Assembly (NCBI GenBank): GCA_902175065.1
Contig: CABIIJ010000039.1
Location: 1-37,580, forward strand
Source of the DNA: an uncultured Comamonas sp.
Lineage (GTDB): Bacteria; Pseudomonadota; Gammaproteobacteria; Burkholderiales; Burkholderiaceae_C
Direction of reading: 5' to 3'
DNA length: 37,580 nucleotides
The notes beneath the pieces were generated by a model. The model had not been told where the DNA came from and made no database searches. It worked only from the letters and a program-made list of their open reading frames with translations. The position numbers and the translations under genes were made by a program. Below are positions 14,802-26,131 of the stretch, one piece after another (the first letter of the stretch is position 1; the number at the start of each line of letters is the position of its first letter).

Positions 14802-14816
14802 CTCCCACTCGATTGT
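14802..14816 (+). other. Distal attachment site of the genomic island
   Basis: CTCCCACTCGAT followed by one differing base and GT repeats, in the same orientation, the sequence at 24502-24516 that encodes the last residues of guaA (TIEWE). Direct repeats of a gene's 3' end are the usual footprint of tyrosine-recombinase insertion. The two copies are 9,700 bp apart. Confidence 0.75.
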
Positions 14817-17281: not shown

Positions 17282-17671
17282 TCATCCGTCCATGCCGCCG
17301 ACTGCTCCCGCATCAGAGATGCCGCGGGCCAACTTCTCCCACCGCTCCATTGCCTGAGCCTTCGCCTCCGGTTTCGCATCCTCCGGGATGGGCGGGGTGT
17401 GCATGTAGTAGGACTTGATGAACAGCTCATGCATCGTCATCAACTCCTGCATTTCGCTGCGCATCCGCCGCACTTCGTTGTGCAGCGTCTTGAAGCTACC
17501 GGCCTGGCGCTTCTCCAAGTCCACCATCGCCCGGTGAAGCTCATCCCCCTGGATGTACTGCCGCGCAGCCTCACGGAACAGCCCCGGCACTGACCAGCCG
17601 CGTGCCTTGGCCACCTCTTCAAGGGCCTGCTGAAAGTCATCGTCACAGCGAACAGCGTTGAGTTTGCCCAT
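17282..17671 (-). CDS. ribbon-helix-helix-like DNA-binding protein with coiled-coil tail
   Basis: A 129-residue protein. The N terminus (MGKLNAVRCDDDFQQALEEV, then ARGWSVPGLFREAARQYI) resembles the strand-helix-helix of CopG/Arc-type regulators and relaxosome accessory proteins. Residues about 45-85 are a heptad-like charged helix (LEKRQAGSFKTLHNEVRRMR). The promoter side carries several dyads with a TGATATCA or GATACC core, and matching TTTCCGCG palindromes lie on both sides of the gene. It could be an autoregulator or a transfer accessory factor. No specific family name can be given with confidence. Confidence 0.75.
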   Translation of the reverse strand: MGKLNAVRCDDDFQQALEEVAKARGWSVPGLFREAARQYIQGDELHRAMVDLEKRQAGSFKTLHNEVRRMRSEMQELMTMHELFIKSYYMHTPPIPEDAKPEAKAQAMERWEKLARGISDAGAVGGMDG

Positions 17672-18114: not shown

Positions 18115-18534
18115 ATGCCACAGCTTCAAGACCGGCACCAGCCGGACATCATTGATGCGGACTTTCGGGAAGTTCGCACCACGGGCTATCAGCCCTCGTC
18201 CATTCAGCGCATCGCAGGCGGCACAGTGACCGCGTCATGCTGCGCACTCATGCTCGCAGCAGGGTTCGAGCTGATCGACGGCCGCATTGCGATGCTGCTC
18301 CTGCTCGCGGTCGGGGCGGGTGGATACCTTGCCTACATCCATCTGCACGCAAACCGGCCTGGTTTCGTGTTCTTCGCAGCCGTCGCCTTGCTGGCCATTG
18401 GGACTTCCATCGCGCTCGCGGGGTTCTATCCCCTCGCTTCTCTGGTTGCGCTCGCCGTCGGCGGCATCTGCGGTGCTCTCGCCCGCGCCGTGAAGGTTGA
18501 CGGTGCGTCTCATCAAGGGAGTACTTTCAAATGA
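18115..18534 (+). CDS. small integral membrane protein upstream of TrbL
   Basis: A 139-residue protein with a polar N terminus (about 35 residues) and roughly four hydrophobic segments (TVTASCCALMLAAGFELI, MLLLLAVGAGGYLAYIHL, GFVFFAAVALLAIGTSIALA, PLASLVALAVGGICGAL). It has no recognisable catalytic motif. The ATG at 18115 follows AAAGGAACGGAG. Its stop overlaps the TrbL start by 4 bp (ATGA), so the two are translationally coupled and may work together in the membrane. It does not look like TrbK or TrbJ. Confidence 0.8.
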   Translation: MPQLQDRHQPDIIDADFREVRTTGYQPSSIQRIAGGTVTASCCALMLAAGFELIDGRIAMLLLLAVGAGGYLAYIHLHANRPGFVFFAAVALLAIGTSIALAGFYPLASLVALAVGGICGALARAVKVDGASHQGSTFK

Positions 18535-20471
18535 CATCGCTCAGCACCCATCGACGCGCGGCGCTTTGGCTGCTCGTCATCGCATTTGCCCTCTTTGCTG
18601 CGGATGCGGCGTTTGCCGATGTCCTGAATGACATCGGCAATGGCTACAAGACCGAATCGGCCAAGTGGTTCCCGAAGCTCCTGGTCATAGCCAAATCCCT
18701 GTTCTGGAAGCTCGCGGCGATTGAATTCGCTTGGGCCTCAATCCTGTGGGTGCTGAAAAGCCAGGAAATGCAGTCGTTCACGGCTGCGGTCGTGCAAAAA
18801 CTCATCGGCATCGGGTTTTTCTACTTTCTGCTGCAAAACGCCGACTACTGGATTCCTGCCATCGTGAACAGTCTGGTGAAGGCTGGCAACGAAGCGACCG
18901 GACTGCCGGCGCTCACGCCGTCCGAAGTGTTCGACCTGGGCATTGATACGGCAGTGGCGATGTTGAAGGGCATCCAGGCGTTGAGCTTGTGGGAAGATTT
19001 CGCCACGGTCGTAGTTGGCGGCCTCGCCGCGCTCGCCATCGTGATTTCGTTCCTGGTCATCGCCGGGCAAATGCTGATCGCGCTGATCGAGAGCTACATC
19101 GCCATCAGCGGCGGTGTGCTGTTCCTGGGCTTCGGCGGCTCGCGCTGGACGGTCGAGTTCACGCAGAAGTACATCAGCTACGCCTTCGCCACGGGCATCA
19201 AGCTGTTCATGCTCTACCTCATCATCGGCGTGGGCACGGCCCAGGCCAAGACCTGGGCGGCCCTGCTGGCGACCACGGACTGGAACAACATTTTCGCCGT
19301 GATGGGTGGCTCGATGCTACTGGCCTTCCTGGGCTCCCAGATTCCGAACATGGCAGCGGCCATGCTGTCCGGTGCACCGTCGCTGACGGCTGGCGCGGCA
19401 GCGGCGACGTCGGGCGCACTCACGGCCGGCACGGTCGCGGCAGGCGCTACCGCCATTTCTCCGGCGATACAGTCCGCCAGGGGCGGCATGCAGGCACTGA
19501 AGGCGGGGTATGACCATCACCGCGCTAGCGGCAGTGGCGCACTGGCAAGCGCCCTCAAGGCGGTCGGCACGTCCACTGTGGACATGGGCCGCGAAGCCGG
19601 CCGCAGTGCCAGCGAAGCCGTGGGCCTTGCGAAGCCTACGGCGTCCGAGCGTTCGACAGTGGGCGGCCGTGCGGCCGAGCGGCGCGACGGCATGACCGCC
19701 CAGCTCCGCGAAGAGCGCGCGGCGATGGCCGACGCGGGCGGCATGAGCAAGGGCGGCGAAAACAACGCGGGCGGTGCTGGCACGTCGGCCGAAGGCGACA
19801 GCGCCAAGAACAACAGCGCGGGCAACAAGAGCACGTCGGCCGCGCCAGTGATTCCCCCGCCTGCGACGCCCTCCGGCGCTGCTGGTGGGGCCGTAGGTGG
19901 GCTTGGCGGGGCCTCCGCGCCCCTAGGCGGCAATCCGCAGGTTGTCGATGACTACGGCAACGTGGTCGCGCCGCCTGCGGCCAAGATGGCCGAGAGCAAC
20001 GCGGGCGGGGCCGGCACGTCGGCGACGAACGCGGCTGCCGCGAACACCAGCGCGGGCAACACCCCGGCCACCGGCTCGGGCGCTGCACCTGCCGGCAGCT
20101 CGGGCAGCGCTCCAGCGCAGACGCTGGCCGCCGCCACGCCGGAAGCCCAGCGCCAGGTCGTCGATGACTACGGTAGCGTGGTGTCGCCGCCCTCGGCCAA
20201 GATCGCCGAGAGCAATGCGGGCGGCGTCGGCACATCGGCAGCGAACACATCGGCGATGAATACCAGCGCAGGCAACACGTCGGCCACGAACACGTCAGCA
20301 CCGTCTAGAGGGGCATCCGCGCCCGCCCCTGGGGCGGGACAAAGCGGCCCGGCCTCGGGCCGCGACAAGACGCCATTCCAGGATTTGCAGCATGTCAGGC
20401 CGCCGCAGATTCCGAGTGACGCCGCGCCGCAGGCCGGCGTGAATATCCGCCTCTCGCATTCCGAGGATTAA
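18531..20471 (+). CDS. trbL: P-type conjugative transfer protein TrbL (VirB6 family)
   Basis: Inner-membrane channel component of type IV secretion systems. The 646-residue protein has a signal-like N terminus (cleavage after AFA, about residue 29), then about six membrane segments up to residue 285, including the conserved ISGGVLFLGFGGSRWT block and YAFATGIKLFMLYLIIG. The remaining 360 residues are low-complexity Ala/Gly/Ser/Asn/Thr. They contain a repeat of about 72 residues that begins QVVDDYG at 19938 and again at 20154, and NAGGxGTSA motifs. No other trb/vir gene is present, so it is an orphan T4SS subunit. Confidence 0.88.
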   Translation: MTSLSTHRRAALWLLVIAFALFAADAAFADVLNDIGNGYKTESAKWFPKLLVIAKSLFWKLAAIEFAWASILWVLKSQEMQSFTAAVVQKLIGIGFFYFLLQNADYWIPAIVNSLVKAGNEATGLPALTPSEVFDLGIDTAVAMLKGIQALSLWEDFATVVVGGLAALAIVISFLVIAGQMLIALIESYIAISGGVLFLGFGGSRWTVEFTQKYISYAFATGIKLFMLYLIIGVGTAQAKTWAALLATTDWNNIFAVMGGSMLLAFLGSQIPNMAAAMLSGAPSLTAGAAAATSGALTAGTVAAGATAISPAIQSARGGMQALKAGYDHHRASGSGALASALKAVGTSTVDMGREAGRSASEAVGLAKPTASERSTVGGRAAERRDGMTAQLREERAAMADAGGMSKGGENNAGGAGTSAEGDSAKNNSAGNKSTSAAPVIPPPATPSGAAGGAVGGLGGASAPLGGNPQVVDDYGNVVAPPAAKMAESNAGGAGTSATNAAAANTSAGNTPATGSGAAPAGSSGSAPAQTLAAATPEAQRQVVDDYGSVVSPPSAKIAESNAGGVGTSAANTSAMNTSAGNTSATNTSAPSRGASAPAPGAGQSGPASGRDKTPFQDLQHVRPPQIPSDAAPQAGVNIRLSHSED

Positions 20472-21285: not shown

Positions 21286-21462
21286 ATGCGCTTGCTGATT
21301 GCTTTGATCCTGCCGTGGCTGACATTCTTCACCATCGGCCGCCCCTTCGCCGGCATCATCTGCCTGATCCTCCAAATCACTCTGATCGGCTGCCTTCCTT
21401 TCTGCGGCCGCCTGATTCCTGGCGATTCGCTCTTGAATGCTCGCTACTGCATCGTCCAGTGA
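21286..21462 (+). CDS. truncated Pmp3/YqaE-like small membrane protein
   Basis: Residues 1-35 (MRLLIALILPWLTFFTIGRP, then FAGIICLILQITLIG) match the first membrane hairpin of Pmp3/YqaE family proteins, which often occur in mobile elements. From about residue 36 the sequence no longer fits: the second hydrophobic segment and charged tail are replaced by CGRLIPGDSLLNARYCIVQ. The 58-residue frame is too short to stand out in ORF lists. GAAAGAG precedes the ATG. Probably a 3'-truncated gene whose tail now reads antisense into the neighbouring minus-strand remnant. Confidence 0.6.
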   Translation: MRLLIALILPWLTFFTIGRPFAGIICLILQITLIGCLPFCGRLIPGDSLLNARYCIVQ

Positions 21463-21492
21463 CTTGCCACGGGCGAAAAGCGCAGTCGGCAT
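21394..21492 (-). pseudogene. 5' remnant of a gene following the helix-turn-helix gene
   Basis: The frame starts at an ATG 5 bp after the stop of the upstream HTH gene and gives MPTALFARGKSLDDAVASIQ followed by ERIARNQAAAERKA, a credible helical protein start. After about 33 residues it becomes the antisense of the Pmp3-like gene and stays open by chance to 21067. The natural 3' part appears to be missing. No family recognised. Confidence 0.45.
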
Positions 21493-21497
21493 CCCGA

Positions 21498-21710
21498 TTA
21501 CTCGCCACCCAGGAACTTCGCAATTGCTGCCGTGCGGAAGTACACCCGCCGCCCGAGCTTCATCTTGGCTGCGTTGAGCTGCTTCGCCCATTCGGTGTCA
21601 TTTCGCAGGCTGACCCGCAGCCCTTCGGCCGAGCGATCTAGCACTTTTGCAAGCTGGGCCATGCTGAGTAGCGGCCCGTACTGGCCCGTCAGTGCCTCTT
21701 CTATGTGCAT
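21498..21710 (-). CDS. small helix-turn-helix DNA-binding protein
   Basis: A 70-residue protein. LLSMAQLAKVLDRSAEGLRVSLRND resembles a MerR/AlpA-type helix-turn-helix, followed by KMKLGRRVYFRTAAIAKFL, the wing and last helix. This layout is typical of excisionase-like island regulators. Its start codon and leader lie in the left arm of an inverted repeat whose right arm holds the leader of the AlpA gene at 22766. Confidence 0.75.
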   Translation of the reverse strand: MHIEEALTGQYGPLLSMAQLAKVLDRSAEGLRVSLRNDTEWAKQLNAAKMKLGRRVYFRTAAIAKFLGGE

Positions 21711-21790
21711 ACGGTGGCTTTCTTTCGATTACGCATTGGGTGATCGAAGAATGCCCACTGGCACCGAAAATAGGTTGTACGAAAGTTAGA
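21706..21790. repeat. Left arm of an 85-bp imperfect inverted repeat (outward promoter)
   Basis: It pairs with 22688-22770 in inverted orientation at roughly 80% identity, including TGCATACGGT, TTCGATTACG, TGATCGAAGAATGC and AAAGTTAGA. It covers the start codon and upstream region of the minus-strand HTH gene. An internal dyad TTCGAT...ATCGAA is a likely operator. Confidence 0.8.
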
Positions 21791-21844
21791 ATTTAGTTGT
21801 CGTCACCTGCTATCATTGCGTGCATCACGTACAGGCGCTTTGAA

Positions 21845-22678
21845 ATGGCAAAACCCGGAACAGCACGGCGAGTATTCGACCCCCTGCTTAACGAGCTGGT
21901 GGCCGAGCGTGATACCTCGTCCGATCGCATCCGCGCCAAGCTGACCGACGCCTACGGCTGGTGTCTCTGTGAGCTGTGCTGGCGCTCCACCGAGTACGCG
22001 ACAGCCGTTGGAGCGCGAAAGTTCTTCAAACGCCCGCGCCGGGAGAACGCCCATGCAGCGCCCTTAACGGACGCCATACGCGTTGAGGCACAGAAGGAAG
22101 CCGATGCCTTGGTGGCACGCTATGAGCGGGCCTGGAAAGGCGAATTTGGCCCCTATGAGCCTGGTCGAATGGTGGCGACCTACTGTGACATCGTGGAAAT
22201 GCGCGGTGATTGTTCAGTGGAAGCATTTCGGGAGCACGTTGAGCAGCGAGCACTCATTGCCGCTTGGGCACGCCACAGCAATCTACTTGCAGTCACGAGG
22301 CTACCCGGCCAGCCCAAAGGGGCAGCGAAGCCCAGCAAGCTCTACTGCGAAGCGCACAACCCCAGGCGAAGCGATGAAGCCCGCCGCGCCTACCAACGCG
22401 ACAAACGATTCGCTCCGCAGTACAACGAGCTGATCGAAAAAATCTGGACGGAGCAAGCCGGCAACTTGCTGGCGTGGGACATCGAAGCCCACGTACATGT
22501 CAAAAGGGGAGCCTATCGCCAGCTCCAAGCACACAAGTCTCCCACGCGCTTGATTGATGACCTGCTGGCCCAGGGCACCATGAGCCAGGCTGAAATCGCG
22601 CGCCAGCTCGGCGTATCGCGCCAGGCTGTCTCTGCTGCCATTAAGCGGCGATCACAGAAGCCTATGGCGGTTGATTGA
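21845..22678 (+). CDS. hypothetical regulator with putative zinc finger and C-terminal helix-turn-helix
   Basis: A 277-residue protein of no recognised family. CELC (about residue 40) and YCEAHNPRRSDEARRAYQRD (about residue 165) could together form a CxxC...CxxH zinc site. The C terminus MSQAEIARQLGVSRQAVSAAIKRR is a clear helix-turn-helix. The ATG at 21845 is preferred to a TTG at 21797; neither has a strong ribosome site. The gene sits exactly between two inverted copies of a promoter sequence that face outward to two small DNA-binding genes, so it may be a master regulator or replication-type protein of the island (inference). Confidence 0.75.
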   Translation: MAKPGTARRVFDPLLNELVAERDTSSDRIRAKLTDAYGWCLCELCWRSTEYATAVGARKFFKRPRRENAHAAPLTDAIRVEAQKEADALVARYERAWKGEFGPYEPGRMVATYCDIVEMRGDCSVEAFREHVEQRALIAAWARHSNLLAVTRLPGQPKGAAKPSKLYCEAHNPRRSDEARRAYQRDKRFAPQYNELIEKIWTEQAGNLLAWDIEAHVHVKRGAYRQLQAHKSPTRLIDDLLAQGTMSQAEIARQLGVSRQAVSAAIKRRSQKPMAVD

Positions 22679-22687
22679 CAATCAAAA

Positions 22688-22770
22688 TCTAACTTTTGTA
22701 CGCCCTATTTTTTGTGCTGCGGTGCATTCTTCGATCATCAAACGTAATCGAATGAAAGCTACCGTATGCA
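22688..22770. repeat. Right arm of the 85-bp imperfect inverted repeat (outward promoter)
   Basis: Inverted partner of 21706-21790. It includes the leader and start codon of the AlpA-like gene and the internal dyad TTCGAT-n11-ATCGAA. Similarity continues a few codons into the genes: both proteins begin M-(H/Q)-I-E. Confidence 0.8.
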
Positions 22771-23008
22771 GATCGAGGCGAAGAGCAAGACTCTCATCAA
22801 TCGCAAGAAGCTTCTGGCGATGATCCCGCTGTCTGAGCGGACGATTTTCAACATGGAGCAGCGTGGAGAGTTCCCGCGCCGCATCGCGCTCACAAGCCGG
22901 AACGTCGCCTGGGACTTGGCCGAGGTAAAGACATGGATTGAGGCGCGCAGGTCGTCGGGCGCCCAGGCCGCGCGTCCCGGATTCACTCCGTTGGCCGCGG
23001 CCGTTTAA
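22766..23008 (+). CDS. AlpA family phage/island transcriptional regulator
   Basis: An 80-residue protein with the AlpA helix-turn-helix: LINRKKLLAMIPLSERTIFN followed by EFPRRIALTSRNVAWDLAEVKTWI. AlpA proteins commonly switch on integrase or excision in P4-like islands. Its 3' end overlaps the 3' end of the convergent integrase gene by 26 bp, so readthrough would produce integrase antisense RNA. Confidence 0.88.
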   Translation: MQIEAKSKTLINRKKLLAMIPLSERTIFNMEQRGEFPRRIALTSRNVAWDLAEVKTWIEARRSSGAQAARPGFTPLAAAV

Positions 23009-24191: not shown

Positions 24192-24498
24192 GGCGTTCGT
24201 CCTGAGTCAGTTCGAATACCATGATCTGCACACCTGCCCTTGCATCACAAAAAATCAATACAAATCAAAGGCTTGTGCACTTTCGATACCATGAACAGCC
24301 GCGAAGCGGTTTCATGGTATCGATAGCCTCTCATGGCACCAGAGCGCGATAGTACCACTCACCATGCCATGAAAAAACAGTGCTTGACGGTGCCAGAAGT
24401 TGCCAGACTATGCTGAACAACAAGGAAGAAATTCAGTATTGACAATAACTTATGGATGATTTGGTGCCAATCGGTGCCAGCCGATGCCAGACGCCCAA
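24192..24498. other. Recombination region between integrase and guaA: hairpin and phased repeats
   Basis: No gene. A perfect 13-bp inverted repeat lies at 24283-24295 and 24311-24323 (TCGATACCATGAA), with an inner CCGC/GCGG stem. A further ATACCATGA lies at 24216. TGCCA(G/A) motifs begin at 24391 and 24401 and again at 24465, 24475 and 24485, exactly 10 bp apart, so all face the same side of the helix. These look like recombinase or accessory-factor binding sites. Confidence 0.65.
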
Positions 24499-26106
24499 TC
24501 ACTCCCACTCGATCGTCGCCGGCGGCTTGGTCGAGACGTCGTAGGTCACACGATTGATGCCCCGAACCTCGTTGATGACCCTGGCGGCGACTTTCTTCAA
24601 CAGCGGATAAGGAAGTTCCGCAGAATCCGCCGTCATGAAGTCGGTGGTCTGCACGGCCCGCAAGGCAATCACATAGTCGTAGGTACGGCCATCGCCCATC
24701 ACGCCCACGCTCTTGACGGGCAGGAACACCGCAAAAGCCTGGCTGGTCAAGTCATACCAGTTCTTGCCGGTCGCCTTGTCCACATGACTGCGCAGTTCTT
24801 CAATGAAGATGGCGTCGGCGCGGCGCAACAGGTCGGCATATTCCTTCTTCACCTCGCCCAGGATACGTACCCCCAGGCCGGGGCCGGGGAAGGGGTGGCG
24901 ATAAACCATTTCGCGCTGCAGGCCCAGGGCCACACCCAGTTCGCGCACCTCGTCCTTGAACAAGTCACGCAATGGCTCCAGCAGTTTCAGCCCCAATTGC
25001 TCGGGCAGGCCGCCAACGTTGTGGTGGCTTTTGATGGTGACGGCTTTCTTGCCACCGGATTCGATGACGTCCGGGTAGATGGTGCCTTGCGCAAGAAAAG
25101 TAGCCCCCTTGTGGCCCTGGCCGCTGGCCTTCAGTTTGGCCGCTTCTGCCTTGAATACGTCGACGAACAGGCCACCGATGATTTTGCGCTTGGCCTCGGG
25201 TTCGCAGACACCGGCCAGTTTGCCCAGAAACAGGTCGCTGGCATCGACGCGCACCACCTTGGCGTGCAGCTTGCCCTCGAACATGTCCATGACCATGTCA
25301 CCTTCATTGAGGCGCAGCAGACCGTGATCGACAAACACGCAGGTGAGCTGATCTCCGATGGCACGATGAATCAGCGCAGCCGCCACGCTGGAATCAACCC
25401 CGCCGGACAGGCCCAGGATGACTTCCTCATCACCGACTTGTTCACGGATTTTCTGCACCGCTTCATCAATGTAGTTACCCATCACCCAATCAGCATTGGC
25501 CGCACAAATCTCATGCACAAAGCGGTTGAGCATGGCGGCCCCCTGCACGGTGTGCGTGACTTCCGGGTGGAATTGCACGGCATAGTAGCGGCGTGATTCG
25601 TCGGCCATGCCGGCAATCGGGCAAGAGGGTGTCGAGGCCATGACCTTGAACCCCGGGGGCAGCTCGGTCACCTTGTCGCCATGGCTCATCCATACCTTGA
25701 GCATTCCATGGCCTTCTTCCGTGGTGAAGTCGGCAATGTCCTTCAGCAAGGCCGTGTGGCCATGGGCACGCACCTCGGCATAGCCAAACTCACGGCTGTT
25801 GCTGCCTTGCACCTTCCCGCCAAGCTGGTTGGCCATGGTCTGCATACCGTAGCAAATGCCCAGGACGGGCAGGCCCAGCTCAAATACGGCATCCGGCGCT
25901 TTGTCGTCCACTTCGTACACGCTGGCATGGCTGCCGGAAAGGATGATGCCTTTCAAACGGCCATCGGCAGCAAACTGACGCACCCAGTCGCTGCCAACAT
26001 CGCAGGGATGAACTTCGCAGTACACATGCGCTTCACGGACACGGCGGGCAATGAGCTGGGTGACCTGAGAGCCAAAGTCCAAAATCAGAATTTTGTCGTG
26101 TTGCAT
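24499..26106 (-). CDS. guaA: GMP synthase (glutamine-hydrolysing)
   Basis: Aminates XMP to GMP with ATP and glutamine. The 535-residue protein has an N-terminal class I amidotransferase with nucleophile C85 (GICYGMQ) and H180/E182 (QFHPEVTH). It is followed by the ATP-pyrophosphatase P-loop SGGVDSS (234-240) and a C-terminal dimerisation domain ending PPATIEWE. The ATG at 26106 is preferred over an in-frame TTG at 26115. It is downstream of guaB in the same direction but separated by 248 bp containing a repeat element. Its 3' end is the island attachment site and remains intact. Confidence 0.97.
24502..24516 (+). other. Attachment site at the guaA 3' end
   Basis: Copy of the 15-bp repeat at 14802-14816 (12 identical bases, one mismatch, two identical). 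It encodes the C terminus of GuaA, so insertion here restores an intact gene. The 3' end of guaA is a known insertion hot spot for islands with tyrosine recombinases. Confidence 0.75.
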
Positions 26107-26131
26107 AACAATCAATCATTAGAAGAATAGC

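Follow-up and report, generated by a model that had tools for sequence, protein, structure and literature searches.

In the 37,580-nucleotide stretch of DNA analysed here (the window, which is contig C39 of a 3.2-Mb genome), two inverted copies of a leader sequence, hereafter the arms, flank a single gene for a putative regulator with a helix-turn-helix (HTH). We put at roughly two in three the probability that this module is the control hub of an integrative element inserted at guaA, in which one regulator would switch excision and replication jointly. In this proposal, which is built from sequence comparison, we take the central protein for a putative HTH regulator, metal-binding, which would read a site in a compact divergent control region; the site has a GWCAAC core roughly 90 nt ahead of the outward start codon. 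At the left copy, the protein would probably regulate itself and control an outward operon of a small HTH gene and replication genes, and the right copy would place AlpA, and with it excision, under the same protein. Excision and replication could then be switched together despite lying in separate outward-facing operons. In the other layout that we found among relatives, AlpA lies opposite the regulator, in most cases with a replication gene after it, and a single copy would be enough; the two gene orders would attain the same coupling of excision and replication.

The guaA-inserted element and its gene content

Known guaA-inserted islands include GIsul2 (PMC9376610) and ICERspD18B (PMC7775301), and both papers, in the excerpts used here, cite Song et al. 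2012 and give the core GAGTGGGA. The complement of this published core, TCCCACTC, is found in the window at 14803 and 24503 only, so the element probably extends from 14.8 to 24.5 kb (Table 1), and an IMP dehydrogenase gene lies past guaA. We filed the window element as a degraded relative of the GIsul2 kind, and it is probably a 9.7-kb remnant of such an element: it is inserted at the 3' end of guaA with the core GAGTGGGA, it has a P4-type integrase with an AlpA gene nearby, and Trb transfer genes are represented by TrbL alone. No match to RepA, RepC or an initiator was found in the window, and searches of the whole genome for TrfA and RepA_C were empty, a weak result since the controls matched nowhere either.

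Table 1. Features of the element and of its control module in the window.
Feature	Position	Strand	Remarks
Candidate far att site, second TCCCACTC	14803..14810		Only other copy in the window
TrbL	18531..20471	+	Sole recognised conjugation gene among the element reading frames tested
HTH protein, 70 aa	21498..21710	-	HTH_17, below cut-off; first gene of the replication operon in relatives
Left arm	21700..21813		Divergent control region separating HTH gene from central gene
Core motif GTTGTC (GACAAC on the outward strand)	21796..21801	+	91 nt before HTH start
Central putative regulator, 277 aa	21845..22678	+	CxxC...CxxH and C-terminal HTH
Right arm	22664..22776		Inverted copy, 5' of AlpA; overlaps central-gene stop codon
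Core motif copy GACAAT	22677..22682	+	One change from GWCAAC; 89 nt before AlpA start
AlpA-family protein, probable excisionase	22766..23008	+	PF05930, 44.2 bits (cut-off 21)
P4-type tyrosine integrase, 402 aa	22983..24191	-	Convergent with AlpA
guaA, GMP synthase	24499..26115	-	Insertion target (3' end)
att core TCCCACTC	24503..24510		guaA 3' end

Since no replication gene follows the small HTH gene in the window, the replication output looks broken there. The preliminary description had called this left-hand output the transfer side, a label that we abandon because the corresponding gene heads a replication operon in relatives and because the alignment of the window with its close relative L074 stops at 21478, just after the HTH gene. 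At the place of the relatives' replication gene, the window has a gene for a 58-aa membrane-like protein (21286-21462), convergent with the HTH gene. A ribbon-helix-helix protein is encoded at 17282-17671 (-) beside unnamed genes, possibly in an antitoxin-type pair.

The right-hand output had been ascribed to the integrase and AlpA together. AlpA stands, but the integrase gene is convergent with it on the opposite strand and the right arm therefore cannot directly drive the integrase. We infer that AlpA is an excisionase from work on GIsul2, in which alpA overexpression made mobilisation easily observable and deletion of the alpA-containing region brought no detectable change in integration; the authors also speculate that alpA may be little expressed (excerpts of PMC9376610). 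Three CGA(A)TACCATGA-like words, one in inverted orientation, lie at 24209-24326, in the interval from the start of the integrase to the att core on the guaA side; two of the words pair as an inverted repeat (24280-24326, 16 bp, 94%), and these words are possibly arm-type integrase or AlpA sites.

The arms, the putative central regulator and two gene layouts

The inverted copies, first described as 85 bp long, are real and somewhat longer, and each includes, as had been reported, the leader and start codon of one small outward gene for a DNA-binding protein (HTH on the left, AlpA on the right). Their local alignment score is 59, compared to a maximum of 15 for 394 random window pairs, and BLAST against the own genome aligned them at 79% identity over 102 columns (E 1.3e-17) and found no third copy there. 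They differ by indels as well as substitutions, and a gap of 31 nt separates the end of the left arm from the start codon of the central gene. Since the two outer small proteins have no detectable likeness to each other, the arms do not appear to be the ends of a gene that was duplicated. A promoter scan predicted no sigma-70-type promoter in either arm. The TTCGAT...ATCGAA dyad, previously noted as a property of each arm, is indeed present in both, with unequal spacers of 13 nt in one and 11 nt in the other, but by itself it lies within chance: an equally long stem appeared in 85 and 77 of 300 shuffles of the two window leaders, and we rejected the dyad as a conserved feature. Dyads of 8 bp in L071, L086 and L017 were reached by few shuffles (3-7 of 300).

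The central gene also holds the motifs first ascribed to its product. C42, C45, C168 and H171, the residues of the putative CxxC...CxxH metal site, are invariant in 9/9 homologues, and the C-terminal HTH matches Pfam HTH_24 at 23.7 bits (cut-off 21.9). We found no named family for the protein; its predicted structure was poor (mean pLDDT 60), and a structural search returned no significant match.

The search for the same three-gene arrangement in other islands, which the preliminary description had suggested, found it in six elements of only four lineages (the window, L074, L070, L071, L072 and L110; two of the lineages are the close pairs window/L074 and L072/L110). In this paired layout, the HTH gene diverges from the central gene, which points toward AlpA. 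Among the relatives tested with Pfam, the small HTH gene is followed by TrfA, RepA_C, AAA_25 or HTH_36 proteins, and a TrfA-family gene lies in the divergent operon beside the regulator in L069, L071 and L086.

It had also been suggested that the segment can invert, so that recombination between the arms would flip the central gene toward HTH or AlpA in turn. The arms are inverted and enclose exactly one gene, and arms of the same element are more alike than the corresponding arms of the window and L071, which either gene conversion or flipping could yield. However, the central gene points away from HTH and toward AlpA in 6/6 assembled paired-layout elements across the four lineages, and it is this single orientation that leads us to disfavour inversion. 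The arms are also just 79% identical and differ by indels, we noticed no second recombinase next to them, and identity of the integrase is 88-99% whether or not an element has paired arms. We consider an invertible segment very improbable.

The other layout, seen in the Pseudomonas and Lampropedia elements, has a single intergenic region from which AlpA and the central gene are read in opposite directions. The intergenic regions of six Pseudomonas loci align to both window arms over 104-118 columns, and the Lampropedia region aligns to them over 18-32 columns only. Relatives carrying the central gene without paired arms had been named beforehand as a finding that would count against the idea, and such relatives exist: in 11 loci of this layout (L005-L011, L073, L016, L017 and L019), no second arm was found, with scores of 8-13. 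From their gene order, we read these loci as explaining rather than refuting the pairing, with AlpA and a replication gene mostly behind what would be one shared arm. By tblastn, 8/11 of them have a recognised replication gene after AlpA, and in L007 the 485-aa protein after AlpA matches a PHROG replication-protein family (E 1.3e-12). In L008 and L011, frames of similar size (495 and 491 aa) follow AlpA; Pfam found only an HTH in the former and nothing in the latter, and we do not identify them as replication genes.

Matched leaders and a core motif at a nearly fixed distance

For each paired-layout element except L110, we aligned the HTH leader to the AlpA leader of the same element; we left L110 out since it matches L072 at 100% identity in both its central and its helicase protein. 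Scores within elements were 59 for the window, 62 for L074, 63 for L071, 57 for L070 and 16 for L072, compared to a background of 974 pairs with a mean of 9.5, a 99th percentile of 15 and a maximum of 21. The leaders are clearly matched in three of the four lineages (57-63) and borderline in the fourth, L072, where the match spans 42 columns only and the score falls inside the background maximum. L072 and L110 come from genomes of two families, and the identity of their proteins points to recent transfer of this element.

Between lineages, leader scores were 7-11, with the exception of the window or L074 compared to L071 (20-35); the central proteins of the window and L071 are 44% identical. 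The central protein of L072 is distantly related to that of the window (19% in the alignment), and the arms of the two are unalike (9-11). In L070, the integrase, AlpA and HTH proteins are 95%, 83% and 69% identical to those of the window, while the central protein is unrelated, and its arms score 9-10 against the window arms and align to each other over 137 columns, 99 of them identical. Since L070 kept the integrase, AlpA and HTH genes but has an unrelated central gene and unrelated arms, the arms follow the central gene. Judging by these alignments, the arms go with the central gene and not with AlpA, HTH or the integrase, and related elements with different putative regulators bear their own, different, matched arm pairs. 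Translational coupling is suggested in L071: there a frame of 31 codons begins at the start codon of the right-hand side, and its stop overlaps AlpA's GTG start, so this arm too takes in operon start signals.

GWCAAC occurs on the outward strand 84-93 nt before the outward start in 17/19 leaders of elements with related central genes, leaders that are partly related by descent and not all independent. One exception is the AlpA leader of the window, where GACAAT stands at 89 nt and L074 has GACAAC, and the other is L095, where the motif stands at 141 nt. GWCAAC was absent from all five leaders of elements with an unrelated central gene or with none detected (both L070 arms and three GIsul2-type AlpA leaders), and it appeared anywhere in a shuffled 150-nt leader at a frequency of 0.06. 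We excluded L006, L008, L009 and L011 from the motif count as close relatives of L005 and L007, and we included, for motif counts only, L069, L086, L087 and L095, which have HTH and a divergent regulator (the stretch read showed no AlpA). The motif itself was used to place the sequences and sets the information content of its columns by construction, which does not hold for the clustering of distances.

Together, these comparisons favour the proposal in the preliminary description that one factor controls two divergent outputs, through the clear and borderline leader pairs, the arms following the central gene and the nearly fixed motif distance, on comparative grounds. We infer that the central protein binds the arms. 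In single and left arms, the motif stands at the central-gene start or just ahead of it, preceded in several cases by a TANAAT-like hexamer (by eye), and from this position the natural expectation is that the central protein autoregulates. A TATTTT hexamer stands in the window arms 29 nt past the motif start, as read on the outward strand, and would put the motif near -41 relative to the outward start site. Since a -10-like hexamer after the motif is absent in 4/18 leaders and has offsets from 16 to 36 elsewhere, this position only hints at activation. With its 6 bp, GWCAAC would make a short operator, and we found no site of clear symmetry.

It is unlikely, in our view, that AlpA or the small HTH protein reads the arms instead of the central protein. 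Each is a DNA-binding protein whose gene lies at an arm, and a role as regulator and/or excisionase has been proposed for AlpA-like proteins (excerpts of PMC10803314). However, L070 has AlpA and HTH proteins close to those of the window together with unrelated arms, three GIsul2-type loci have AlpA with neither a detected central gene nor the motif, and alpA expression in PICMI115 left satellite gene expression unaltered (same excerpts). It would be more surprising still if the arms were a leftover duplication without shared regulation, alike as recent copies. Their identity does cover whole leaders and first codons, broader than any one operator, and the dyad alone is within chance, but matched pairs recur in lineages whose arm sequences are unrelated, and the core motif holds its distance to the outward start codon in far more diverged leaders.

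Relation to known systems and distribution

A regulator gene with a predicted site ahead of both the excision gene and the replication operon would bear directly and testably on what switches on the excision of guaA islands, within the elements that possess it. The window element resembles three GIsul2-type loci (L098, L099 and L100) in its P4-type integrase (identity to the L100 copy, 91%), AlpA, the 3' end of guaA, the core GAGTGGGA and TrbL, and its relatives share replication genes with them, which by annotation also follow AlpA in all three. On the other hand, these loci have the integrase, AlpA and replication genes all in one direction, no central or HTH gene was detected in their 15-kb stretches, and their AlpA leaders are without GWCAAC. 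GIsul2 itself carries a sulphonamide-resistance gene and an arsenic operon (excerpts of PMC9376610).

The Pseudomonas and Lampropedia loci L005-L011, and L073, a related one, share with the window AlpA, a homologous central gene (54-74% identical) and, in 7/8 loci, an integrase 88-92% identical to that of the window (the stretch of L005 is without it), but there AlpA diverges from the central gene across one arm and the 70-aa HTH gene was not detected in the stretches read. Among the eight genomes behind L004-L011, the small HTH protein was found in that of L004, which has the paired layout, with a weaker 43% match elsewhere in the genome of L008.

In IncP-1 plasmids, KorA/TrfB controls the trfA operon. 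The likeness is an HTH regulator adjoining a divergent TrfA-family operon, as in L069, L071 and L086, but the central protein is larger and has a putative metal site and a link to AlpA and excision. It matches the KORA profile (PF16509) weakly and over the HTH only, at 18.3 bits compared to a cut-off of 26.7, and we rejected membership of KorA/TrfB on this score; the L087 protein scored 21.6 bits. In PICMI satellites, AlpA acts as a key excision switch, and alpA belongs together with up1 and prim to one early regulon, but these are phage satellites, and a central regulator and paired arms are not among the features in the excerpts available (PMC10803314).

A wider reading, which we hold tentatively and at somewhat less than even odds, is that the central proteins are master regulators of an as yet unnamed metal-binding HTH family, with an operator of their own (core GWCAAC), and couple excision and replication of guaA elements. 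The cassette of arm, regulator and inverted arm would be exchanged whole, the arms would stay alike by concerted evolution, and unrelated regulators would have reached the same mirror layout.

The central protein has eight relatives in genome contigs and matched 7/399 genomes of the order, its own counted, and 16/298 genomes of the genus of G884, G884 counted; the distant matches (4 in the order set and 11 in the G884-genus set) cover the C-terminal part only. Among 199 relatives, it matched its own genome only. The small HTH protein was found in 20/369 genomes of the class, 12/399 of the order, 5/110 of the family, 1/67 of the family of G333 and 5/100 of the family of G430, each count taking in the centre genome, or the own one if the set contains it. 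No arm or motif count includes L088-L094, L096, L097 and L111-L114, which are HTH loci where a central gene and AlpA were not recognised. Viral contigs queried with the central and HTH alignments gave no confirmed relative, and a search of open-access literature by title and abstract found no paper on the regulator or the paired arms. The plasmid collection gave no match to the window's central or HTH protein, and the 329-aa central protein of L018 matched one Vibrio plasmid. On Vibrio plasmid pL29 (L101), a guaA-type integrase was recovered in two tblastn pieces and a central-family gene, with AlpA beside it, likewise in two pieces, and both genes may be frameshifted.
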